Assembly (NCBI RefSeq): GCF_022869865.1
Contig: NZ_CP094984.1
Coordinates: forward strand, 3,038,001 to 3,102,000
Direction of reading: 5' to 3'
Source: Arthrobacter zhangbolii
Lineage (GTDB): Bacteria > Actinomycetota > Actinomycetes > Actinomycetales > Micrococcaceae
DNA: 64,000 nt
The notes below the pieces were generated by a model. It saw only the letters and a list, made by a program, of their open reading frames with translations, ran no database searches and had not been told where the DNA came from. Both the position numbers and the translations under genes were made by a program. This document shows positions 4,347 to 7,495 of the stretch, one piece after another (position 1 is the first letter of the stretch; the number at the start of each line of letters is the position of its first letter).

Positions 4347-5201
4347 CTAGCGCCCGATCTCCGCACGGACGGCATAAAGCTCCGGGAAGAACGTGAGGTC
4401 CAGTGCCCGCCGGAGGAAGCCCGCACCGCTGGAACCGCCGGTGCCGCGCTTCATGCCGATAGTGCGTTCCACGGTCTTGAGGTGTCGGAAACGCCACAGC
4501 TGGAAATTGTCCTCCAGGTCCACCAGCTCCTCGCAGGCCTCATAAACATCCCAGTTCGCCTCGTGGTTCTCATAGACGTATTTGTAGACCTCCAGCAGCG
4601 ACTGGTCGTAGACATGGGCCTTGCGCACATCCCGCTGAAGCAGGGCAGCGTCCACCGCGTAGCCGCGGCGGTGCAGATACCGGATGAACTCGTCATAGAT
4701 ACTGGTCTCCCCCAGCAGCCCCGACAGCAGTGCCTGCGCCTGCGGGTCAGCGGAGAATACTGCAATCATTGACTCGTTCTTGTTCCCCAGCAGGAACTCC
4801 ACGGCACGGTACTGGTAGGACTGGAACCCGCTGGAAGCCCCGAGATCTCCGCGGAACTGCGCATATTCGGAGGGGGTCAGGGTTGCCAGTACGGACCACT
4901 GCTCGGTCAGCGAGCGCTGGATGTGCTTGATCCGGGCAATCCCCTTCATTGCTGAACGAAGGTCATCCTCCTGCAGCCGGGACCGCACGGCCAGCAGCTC
5001 ATGCAGGACCAGCTTCAACCACAGCTCCGAGGTCTGGTGCTGGATGATGAACAGCATCTCGTCGTGGTGCTCGGGCCGGCTGACCGGATGCTGCGCAGAA
5101 AGCAGTTCATCCAGTGCAAGGTAGGACCCGTAGCTCATTTTGTCGCTGAAATCCCGTTCAATACCAGCTTCAAGGCTGCGGGTGTTCTCGTTGGCTTCCA
5201 T
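4347..5201 (-). CDS. kynA: Tryptophan 2,3-dioxygenase
   Basis: A 284-aa haem dioxygenase that opens the indole ring of L-tryptophan to N-formylkynurenine, the first step of the kynurenine pathway. Family marks are the substrate-site block FIIQHQTSELWLKL near the N terminus, the haem-ligand region LWRFRHLKTVERTIG and the terminal KRGTGGSSGAGFLRR loop. The reading frame extends about 150 codons further upstream, but that extension runs over the divergent sseB-like gene and is not homologous to the family. The ATG before EANENTRSLEAG gives the normal bacterial length. No kynurenine formamidase or kynureninase gene is in the window, so the rest of the pathway must be elsewhere or absent. Confidence 0.92.
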   Translation of the reverse strand: MEANENTRSLEAGIERDFSDKMSYGSYLALDELLSAQHPVSRPEHHDEMLFIIQHQTSELWLKLVLHELLAVRSRLQEDDLRSAMKGIARIKHIQRSLTEQWSVLATLTPSEYAQFRGDLGASSGFQSYQYRAVEFLLGNKNESMIAVFSADPQAQALLSGLLGETSIYDEFIRYLHRRGYAVDAALLQRDVRKAHVYDQSLLEVYKYVYENHEANWDVYEACEELVDLEDNFQLWRFRHLKTVERTIGMKRGTGGSSGAGFLRRALDLTFFPELYAVRAEIGR

Positions 5202-5270
5202 GCCCACCACGGTATCCGCTGGGTATGCCAGACTTGGGGTTTTGACCCCGATCTTTCCAAGGAGTCCCAG

Positions 5271-5771
5271 ATGGAACCGGACAATACTCCCGACGTCCCC
5301 GCAATGCCGCTGGCCAACGAGGACGCACCCGCCCCAGGCGCAGCCCTCGAGGAAGCCGTCAAAGCCGGCCGCGAGGGACGCCTCTCCAACCGTGAGGTCA
5401 TGTCCGTGATCTGGACGTCCGAGCTGCTCAGCGTGGGCCGGCTGGCAAAGGAGGACGATTCCTCCTCCTTCCAGGCACTGGTGCTCAAGGCCCCCGATTC
5501 CGAGTATTCCGTGGCCGCCGTGTTCTCCACTGCAGACCGGATCCCCCAGCAGCTGCGCGAGGCGGCACCGGTGGTCGTCAAGGCTACCGGCGAGGCCACC
5601 ATCCGCAGCATCGCACCCGGCTACGGCATGGCACTGAACCCCGGGCACGACGTCGGCATGGAGATCGGCCCGGACGTGGTGGCGTCGCTGACCGCCGCCT
5701 ATGACCAGGCTGCCGAGCAGGCGGCACAGGAAAATTCAGTGCGTCCGGAACGCCCCGGGACGGACGGCTAA
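5271..5771 (+). CDS. SseB-like family protein, function unknown
   Basis: A 166-aa soluble, acidic, alanine-rich protein. The layout (LEEAVKAGREGRLSNREVMSVIWTSELL, then a strand-rich middle and ATIRSIAPGYGMALNPGHDVGMEI) resembles the SseB N-terminal domain found in many actinobacterial hypothetical proteins; the assignment is by pattern only. The ATG at 5271 is chosen because AAGGAG lies seven bases upstream. The frame is open much further upstream but runs across the kynA coding region. The gene is divergent from kynA with only 69 bp between the start codons, so the two promoters overlap or abut. Confidence 0.6.
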   Translation: MEPDNTPDVPAMPLANEDAPAPGAALEEAVKAGREGRLSNREVMSVIWTSELLSVGRLAKEDDSSSFQALVLKAPDSEYSVAAVFSTADRIPQQLREAAPVVVKATGEATIRSIAPGYGMALNPGHDVGMEIGPDVVASLTAAYDQAAEQAAQENSVRPERPGTDG

Positions 5772-5847: not shown

Positions 5848-5889
5848 TTGAAGTGTCAGTGACGGGGCCTACGCTGGTGATCCTCACCA
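5848..5889 (+). promoter_or_regulatory. Predicted promoter and inverted repeat upstream of the M4 protease
   Basis: A TTGAAG -35 box (5848-5853) lies 16 bp from a TACGCT -10 box (5870-5875), which fits a housekeeping promoter. The inverted repeat TGGTGA-TCC-TCACCA (5875-5889) overlaps the expected transcription start and could be an operator or a short 5' hairpin. It is followed by the AGGAGGG ribosome binding site of the protease gene. Predicted by eye only. Confidence 0.4.
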
Positions 5890-5902
5890 GGAGGGCTGAC
5901 AA

Positions 5903-6970
5903 ATGACCAACTCACGCGTGACACATTCAATCTGTTCCATCGTTCCGCCGTATCTGCTGACCCGTCTCGCCGCCGCGGAAGACCCGGGCCGGGCTGCAGC
6001 GGCCGCCGCCGCGCGTCGCACCCTGACCACCCTCGGAACCGTCGAAGCGGCCCGGTCCCTGCCGCACCCGCCCCCGTCCCGCAGCACGGGGACCGCGTTC
6101 ACTCCCACTCTGCGACGCATCGTCTCGGATGCCCTTGGCCAGGAGGAGCTGCCCGGCACCCCGGTGCGGTCCGAGGGGCAGCCCGCAACCGGAGACGCCG
6201 CGGTCGACGAAACGTATGAGGGGCTCGGTGCCACGTACCACCTGTTCAGCGATGCCTACGGCCGCTCCTCTGTGGACGGCGCCGGGCGGACGCTGGAAGC
6301 CACGGTGCATTACGGCCGCGACTACGACAATGCCTTCTGGGACGGGTCCCGCATGGTCCTCGGGGACGGCGACGGCGAGGTCTTTGAGCGCTTCAGCAAA
6401 TCCCTCACCGTAATCGGCCATGAACTTGCACATGGATTCATCCAGTACACCGCGCAACTGGAATACCGGGACCAGTCAGGTGCCCTGAACGAGTCCATCG
6501 CCGACGTCTTCGGCGTACTGGTGGAGCAGAAGCTGCTGGGCCAGGAAGCCGGCCAGGCGAGCTGGCTGGTGGGCGAGGGCCTGTTCACCGAACATGTGGG
6601 CGGGCAGGCCCTGCGCTCACTCAAAGCACCCGGAACGGCGTACGACGACGACGTGCTGGGCAAGGACCCGCAGCCCGGATCCATGGACGACTACGTCCGC
6701 ACGGCAGCGGACAACGGCGGCGTGCACATCAACTCGGGCATCCCCAACCGCGCCTTCTACCTGGTCGCAGCCGCACTGGGCGGGTATGCCTGGGAACGCG
6801 CAGGACAGATCTGGTACGACACCATTACCGAGCCCAATTTCCCGGCCGACGCCACGTTCGCAGTCTTCGCCGCTGCCACACTGACGGCCGCCGAAAAACG
6901 CTACGGAGCGGGAACCGAGGAAAGTTCTGCTGTTCAGTCCGCATGGAAAGAGGTTAACGTCATGGTATGA
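5903..6970 (+). CDS. Protealysin-like M4 (thermolysin family) metalloprotease
   Basis: A 355-aa zinc endopeptidase precursor. Zinc ligands and catalytic residues are clear: HELAH at 173-177, third ligand Glu197 in NESIADVFG, and catalytic His275 in GGVHINSG. There is no signal peptide. Instead a short N-terminal propeptide carries HSICSIVPPYLL (8-19), whose PPY motif is typical of the protealysin subgroup rather than of secreted thermolysins. Self-processing in the region before the mature domain (roughly residues 55-100) is expected from the family. The start ATG has a strong AGGAGGG site. The stop overlaps the ATG of the next gene, a probable emfourin inhibitor, by four bases, so protease and inhibitor should be translated together. 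Cytoplasmic synthesis with regulated release is inferred from family knowledge. Confidence 0.9.
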   Translation: MTNSRVTHSICSIVPPYLLTRLAAAEDPGRAAAAAAARRTLTTLGTVEAARSLPHPPPSRSTGTAFTPTLRRIVSDALGQEELPGTPVRSEGQPATGDAAVDETYEGLGATYHLFSDAYGRSSVDGAGRTLEATVHYGRDYDNAFWDGSRMVLGDGDGEVFERFSKSLTVIGHELAHGFIQYTAQLEYRDQSGALNESIADVFGVLVEQKLLGQEAGQASWLVGEGLFTEHVGGQALRSLKAPGTAYDDDVLGKDPQPGSMDDYVRTAADNGGVHINSGIPNRAFYLVAAALGGYAWERAGQIWYDTITEPNFPADATFAVFAAATLTAAEKRYGAGTEESSAVQSAWKEVNVMV

Positions 6971-7308
6971 GACTGGTAGTAGTGCGCAGCGGCGGCTTCG
7001 CGGGAATGCAGCGTGAGTGGAGCACACAGGTCAGCCCCGAGGAAGCACGGGACCAGTGGCTGCCCCTCCTGAGCGACCCGCCGGAGACTGCGGATGACGA
7101 ACCGGACCGCTTTACCTACGAGATTTCCGTCGGTCCCGCAGCGGTGACCATTCCCGAGCGCCAGGTCAAAGGCCGGTGGCGCGAGCTTGTGGAACGTGCC
7201 CGCAGCGGGGCACCCGTTGACGCGGCTGCGGCGGAGGAGCCTTCTGACGTCTCCCCCGAAGAAAACACACACCGTGCCGGCCCGGACACCGGCGGGAATA
7301 AGGGGTAA
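6967..7308 (+). CDS. Emfourin-like inhibitor of M4 protease
   Basis: A 113-aa protein encoded directly after, and overlapping by ATGA with, the protealysin-like gene. It opens MRLVVVRSGGFAGMQREW. The RSGGFAG turn at residues 7-13, followed by a strand-rich domain (TYEISVGPAAVTIPERQV), matches the emfourin (M4in) family of proteinaceous inhibitors encoded beside protealysin-like genes in Serratia and other bacteria. The last 30 residues are polar and probably disordered. Inhibition of the neighbouring enzyme is inferred from family and gene order. Confidence 0.78.
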   Translation: MRLVVVRSGGFAGMQREWSTQVSPEEARDQWLPLLSDPPETADDEPDRFTYEISVGPAAVTIPERQVKGRWRELVERARSGAPVDAAAAEEPSDVSPEENTHRAGPDTGGNKG

Positions 7309-7421: not shown

Positions 7422-7495
7422 GCGGGCGTAGCTCAATGGTAGAGCGCTAGCTTCCCAAGCTTGATACGCGGGTTCGATTCCCGTCGCCCGCTCCA
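7422..7495 (+). tRNA. tRNA-Gly (anticodon CCC)
   Basis: The cloverleaf can be drawn by eye: acceptor GCGGGCG pairs with CGCCCGC, the D arm is GCTC-AATGGTA-GAGC, the anticodon loop is TTCCCAA with CCC at 7454-7456, the T loop is TTCGATT, and CCA is encoded (7493-7495). The anticodon stem CTAGC/GCTTG has one T-T mismatch. It reads GGG glycine codons. It stands alone between the emfourin-like gene and panD. Confidence 0.95.

Follow-up and report, generated by a model that had tools for sequence, protein, structure and literature searches.

The window, a stretch of 64,000 nucleotides of DNA from the soil bacterium Arthrobacter zhangbolii, carries a gene for a protealysin-type M4 metalloprotease that runs into the gene of an emfourin-family protein. 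The two probably constitute a cytoplasmic zymogen and its cognate inhibitor, produced from one mRNA by coupled translation and secured by a double lock. The pair is core, single-copy and syntenic in the sampled genomes of the genus (29/29).

The features that we refer to below, in window coordinates, are:

5889..5894, + strand: ribosome-binding site AGGAGG, 8 bases before the protease ATG (from the sequence)
5903..6970, + strand: protealysin-like M4 metalloprotease precursor, 355 aa (from the open reading frame, Pfam and the PDB match)
5936..5953, + strand: propeptide PP motif S12-I13-V14-P15-P16-Y17 (from the sequence)
6419..6433, + strand: HELAH, zinc-binding/catalytic motif, residues 173-177 (from the sequence)
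6491..6505, + strand: ESIAD, starting at residue 197 (from the sequence)
6725..6727, + strand: His275 of HINSGI (from the sequence)
6949..6953, + strand: weak ribosome-binding site AGAGG, 13 bases before the emfourin ATG
6967..6970, + strand: stop/start overlap ATGA (from the sequence)
6967..7308, + strand: emfourin-family protein, 113 aa, domain at about residues 1-80 (from the open reading frame, Pfam and a model)
6985..7005, + strand: RSGGFAG motif (from the sequence and an alignment)
7422..7495, + strand: tRNA-Gly (CCC), directly downstream and part of the conserved slot

The protease and its putative inhibitor

Both open reading frames, of 355 and 113 residues, and the ATGA between them lie where the original prediction had placed them. 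The larger product contains the Pfam domains Peptidase_M4 (93.5 bits) and Peptidase_M4_C (181.9 bits), each exceeding its cut-off, and its zinc-site motifs HELAH, ESIAD and HINSGI are intact. By homology, Glu197 of ESIAD is presumably the third zinc ligand, and we take His275 of HINSGI to be the catalytic histidine, as in thermolysin. The top match in the PDB is the protealysin precursor 2vqx, at 361.8 bits over residues 10-353, against 167 bits for the runner-up distinct sequence; as the alignment begins at residue 10, it covers the propeptide. The PLN_propep profile scores 14.9 bits on the window protease, below the Pfam cut-off of 28.1; the PPY motif is present nonetheless. Judged by its domains and motifs, this is a protealysin-like M4 enzyme, as had been proposed, and its maturation is predicted to be autocatalytic.

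The N-terminus of the protease is MTNSRVTHSICSIVPPYLL, with PPY at residues 15-17. Within residues 1-60, no signal peptide is visible, because the most hydrophobic uncharged 12-mer, SICSIVPPYLLT, averages just 1.38 in a hydropathy scan; the scan thus bears out the earlier view of a protein with the PPY motif and without a signal peptide. In the alignment with 2vqx, CS-IVPPYLL of the window protease faces RS|VIPPYML of protealysin, whose first self-cleavage occurs at Arg-Ser|Val-Ile according to passages of PMC6778150. The bond S12|I13 would correspond to this site. We also considered a cysteine switch, given C11 ahead of the PP motif, and dropped the idea: Cys is not general four residues before PP, a position held among the 74 named and window proteases by Cys in 24, His in 33, Arg in 11 and others in 6. 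An upstream promoter scan found nothing on the + strand.

The 113-residue protein reaches 39 bits against Pfam Emfourin (PF20242), whose cut-off is 27, and has the RSGGFAG stretch from which its emfourin-like nature had been guessed; by these marks it is a member of the Emfourin family, and inhibition is predicted. Across 55 aligned emfourins, G9, G10 and G13 of the motif are invariant and A12 is nearly so. A profile made from 55 emfourin relatives has a sole PDB match, 6zyg, named ‘Protealysin-associated protein’ (E=0.0032); the window emfourin used as a single sequence is too divergent to match it. The predicted structure has a pLDDT of 77, with the tail after about residue 80 poorly modelled, and 6zyg is absent from the matches listed in a fold search with this model. 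Those matches include Mago nashi (Z ~5) and Streptomyces subtilisin-inhibitor-type proteins, sermetstatin among them (Z ~3); because such Z values are typical of common arrangements, we draw no inference from them. The window genome has one copy of the protease and one of the emfourin.

The gene junction

The junction reads ATG-GTA-TGA, with its second ATG at 6967-6969, and the overlap is 4 bases long. The spacing of 13 bases between AGAGG and this ATG is longer than ideal, which would fit coupling. The NTGA overlap is preserved in 28/29 genus genomes, 22 with ATGA and 6 with GTGA: an NTGA at the protease stop was scored in 29/29, from which L268 (genome G458), with its disturbed protease frame and shifted stop, was excluded. 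Since NTGA persists even where the emfourin start is GTG and not ATG, translation of the two genes is likely coupled, in line with the original prediction. It would proceed on a shared mRNA and would balance the synthesis of enzyme and inhibitor. The emfourin gene starts more than 50 bases past the protease in 21 of the 80 named loci described below; tight coupling is therefore not universal.

Conservation in the genus

Our genus sample comprises 29 genomes, that of the window included, and all 29 junctions were examined. Every genome has a single protease match and a single emfourin match, and the two are adjacent in 29/29, which settles in its favour the point on which the prediction had been staked beforehand, that the genes be conserved as neighbours. 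The pair's slot is marked by dcd upstream (29/29), TDO (28/29) and a tRNA-Gly-like sequence downstream (29/29), and panD is found in 21/29 of the 6-kb stretches around the pair. Gene order is identical in 6/6 named Arthrobacter loci, and Pfam bears out the naming of the genes that flank the pair in the window.

The nearest named relative, at 84%, is Arthrobacter yangruifuii. Compared with three close relatives, the protease gene has a pN/pS of 0.16-0.19 and the emfourin gene one of 0.15; with two more distant relatives, both genes have values of 0.27-0.42. The two genes are under purifying selection. Low pN/pS values, together with presence in 29/29 genomes, make the pair more than a chance arrangement.

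Distribution beyond the genus

Pairs of this kind had been described as known from enterobacteria such as Serratia. The kind is indeed known, but it is not confined there, occurring also in Actinomycetota, Sphingomonas and Myxococcus. Our survey of 296 genomes across the phylum gave an emfourin match in 21 and an M4_C match in 40; among 149 genomes of the family, the numbers are 33 and 76. An iterated profile built from emfourin loci recovers more emfourins than Pfam does. M4 rows were divided into protealysin-type and other at 200 bits of similarity to the window protease.

An emfourin lies nearby in 90 of the 93 protealysin-type rows and in none of the 34 other M4 rows, where 25/84 M4 rows of the phylum survey are left out, rows below 60 bits against P0001 are dropped, one broken gene, L049, contributes two of the 93 rows, and two of the 34 (in L143 and L148) seem to be second, truncated views. 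L017, a cut view of the L136 protease, was set aside. Three of the 90 (L006, L041 and L112) had been missed by the profile or the distance rule and were added by inspection; the emfourins of L006 and L112 have Pfam matches. In 32/34 other M4 rows, a hydrophobic stretch falls within residues 1-150 of the open frame. Emfourin is closely associated with the signal-less, protealysin-type class of proteases. The arrangement varies among the 90: L136 has its emfourin gene about 1.2 kb after the protease, and in L119 the order is reversed, with the emfourin gene upstream of a protease that has a C-terminal extension.

We further compared 80 named loci, those nearest to the window protease; having been chosen by similarity to it, they are not an even sample. 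An emfourin was found in 76 of them and not in the other 4 (L170, L173, L219 and L226). Among the groups represented are Micrococcaceae, Microbacteriaceae, Nocardiaceae, Streptomycetaceae, Intrasporangiaceae, Sphingomonas and Myxococcaceae. The two genes overlap in 11 loci; the emfourin gene starts within 50 bases of the protease in 36 and later in 21; the genes are fused in 6, the protease frame is disturbed in 2, and no emfourin is present in 4. For 74 pairs (the 80 loci minus L203, L211 and L212, whose protease frames are disturbed or unclear, minus the 4 without emfourin, plus the window), protease and emfourin distances correlate with a Mantel r of 0.86, a value reached in 0/1000 permutations, which ignore relatedness. 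Emfourin changes about 1.8 times faster than the protease (177 comparisons at protease distances of 0.05-0.3).

Some relatives stand apart. L120 has an emfourin gene (4997-5395, − strand) with no protease in the 8 kb analysed; its contig, 22 kb long, has genes that look transposase- and partition-like and may be a plasmid or contamination. L020 encodes a 246-aa protein (1066-1806, − strand) with an N-terminal emfourin domain of 29.4 bits and an unassigned remainder; its genome gave no match to M4_C. On a Streptomyces canus plasmid (L273:2986-5193), there is a protealysin-like protease with an acidic glycine-rich tail, and the gene after it encodes a putative membrane protein, not an emfourin. 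Phage genomes encode protealysin-like M4 enzymes of about 299 aa (L271:2998-3897 in JustBecause, L274:2779-3678 in Frankenweenie); a search of both whole records, run without a control, found no emfourin. A mobile-element origin of the pair was considered and set aside: plasmid and phage searches gave relatives, the closest plasmid match being a protease-emfourin pair on a plasmid labelled ‘Pseudomonas sp. DR48’ (L272, protease 63.5% identical to the window's), and this record looks like actinobacterial DNA.

One-chain fusions

Protease and emfourin form one open frame in 6/80 named loci, all from Intrasporangiaceae/Dermatophilaceae, and in one survey locus:

L186:3974-5422, fused protease-emfourin
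L187:3950-5422, fused protease-emfourin
L192:3992-5377, fused protease-emfourin of Janibacter anophelis
L228:4001-5452, fused protease-emfourin
L233:3977-5473, fused protease-emfourin
L236:3962-5464, fused protease-emfourin
L022:85-1764, fused protease-emfourin (survey locus), from a genome of the same order as the other fusions

The linker is of low complexity, rich in proline, alanine, serine or glycine, and both Pfam domains exceed their cut-offs in 3/3 fusions checked (L186, L192 and L228). In a protease tree of 60 of the 74 rows, near-copies being left out, a branch supported at 98/94 separates the six named fusions from the rest. Four of these six (L186, L187, L228 and L233) lie downstream of recF/dciA-type genes, with gyrB on the other side of the fusion gene in L186, L187 and L233; the neighbours are named by Pfam for L186 and by sequence clustering for the other three. 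An AlphaFold model of the fused Janibacter protein has a pLDDT of 87 (mostly about 90 in the emfourin domain, below 60 in the linker) and a pTM of 0.71. We found no mention of a protease-emfourin fusion in the passages, titles and abstract openings of the emfourin literature that were searched.

It is conceivable, though we hold it only tentatively, that Actinomycetota keep the pair as a resident device for intracellular self-digestion, which has become fixed in at least one whole genus and whose two parts are held in step by coupling of their translation, and that in Intrasporangiaceae/Dermatophilaceae selection has welded both parts into one polypeptide with a flexible linker. The fused protease would then have a removable C-terminal inhibitor in addition to its N-terminal propeptide. 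Loss of inhibitor alone could not undo such a lock; the linker would need to be cut. The natural fusions lend themselves to a structural test of the way in which emfourin docks on the enzyme.

Proposed mechanism and alternatives

Primary work on emfourin includes Chukhontseva 2021 and Bozin 2023. According to passages of published work on Serratia, protealysin accumulates as an inactive precursor that is processed after lysis (PMC6778150; PMC11172720), emfourin attaches to its active-site region with 1:1 stoichiometry, and deletion of emfourin leads to lower FtsZ and an earlier fall in optical density (PMC9505478). The Arthrobacter pair may work like its Serratia counterpart. Its protease would be made without a signal peptide and held inactive by the short PP-motif propeptide, and any molecule that matured in the cell would be caught by emfourin; the two locks, propeptide and inhibitor, would keep the enzyme harmless. 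By this analogy, the 113-residue protein probably blocks the neighbouring protease and would be its actual inhibitor in the cell. The putative triggers would be cell lysis, loss or dilution of the inhibitor, or removal of the propeptide, after which the released enzyme would digest its presumed substrates, the proteins of the cell or those released. The window protease is probably kept inside the cell, and need not leave it.

The pair could instead be an interbacterial effector with its immunity protein, the protease entering neighbouring bacteria to cut FtsZ and RecA while emfourin protects sister cells. In the passages of PMC9505478 seen here, this is proposed for Serratia as the authors' assumption, cleavage of FtsZ and RecA is shown, and operon sharing is described as common among effector-immunity pairs. 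L120 and L020, whose emfourin-domain genes have no protease close by, are what one would expect of orphan immunity genes. Effector pairs are usually accessory and fast-changing, whereas this one is single-copy in one slot in 29/29 genus genomes, not of accessory, polymorphic distribution. Both genes are under purifying selection with similar rates among close relatives, and across genera the inhibitor distances track those of the protease. Around the 80 named loci, no neighbour family besides the pair is common to more than 5 genera, and those families that do recur seem to reflect common descent or to be antisense frames. The protease lacks a visible signal peptide, and neither an export signal nor a linked delivery system is evident near the pair in the window or as a common feature of the surroundings of the 80 loci. 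A toxin and its antidote fit a core, syntenic pair less well than the double lock, and we regard them as an unlikely explanation.

It is very unlikely that emfourin acts mainly on proteases from outside, for example the protealysin-like enzymes of phages, or as a folding helper, control of its neighbour being secondary. Candidate targets would be the M4 enzymes with an N-terminal PP motif encoded by the Streptomyces phages JustBecause and Frankenweenie; against this, nearly every emfourin goes with a protease encoded in the same genome, enzyme and emfourin make up a single chain in one family, and Serratia emfourin is reported, in the passages of PMC9505478, to bind 1:1 at the active-site region of the enzyme. 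We give still less credence to a degradative protease secreted by non-classical export, with emfourin guarding the cytoplasm beforehand. Some protealysin-like proteases (PrtS-type, Prt1) are discussed in passages of PMC6778150 as cutting host proteins extracellularly, but no signal peptide is visible here, the Pfam-named window neighbours include no secretion gene, and it is the other M4 proteases that have hydrophobic N-termini (32/34 rows) and no emfourin.

Comparison with known systems

Proteases controlled by emfourin may serve as virulence factor, interbacterial weapon or internal protease, and a genus with a universal single-copy pair is a clean place to probe an internal role by gene removal. 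The type of pair is already known, and that of Arthrobacter is a further member. With protealysin and emfourin of Serratia proteamaculans (Pln, 2vqx; M4in, 6zyg), it shares the M4 zymogen type, the PP motif of a putative propeptide, the lack of a visible signal peptide and the emfourin-family gene alongside, with catalytic motifs conserved in both. It differs in its actinobacterial host and in its fixed slot beside tRNA-Gly. Four residues ahead of PP, the window protease has Cys11 and 2vqx an Arg, and the window emfourin has diverged from 6zyg to the point of being reached by profile only. The Arthrobacter genes overlap by ATGA; the junction of the Serratia pair lies outside this comparison.

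Bacterial effector-immunity pairs likewise consist of adjacent enzyme and inhibitor; unlike them, the Arthrobacter pair is core, syntenic and under purifying selection, and no linked delivery genes were found with it. Thermolysin and secreted M4 proteases have the catalytic domain and its motifs in common with the window protease, whereas in the other M4 rows of our surveys the N-terminal region is long and usually includes a hydrophobic stretch, and 0/34 have an emfourin neighbour. To these known systems, our analysis adds that the pair is fixed in a genus, that the surveys separate protealysin-type from other M4 proteases cleanly, and that natural fusions unite enzyme and emfourin in one chain.
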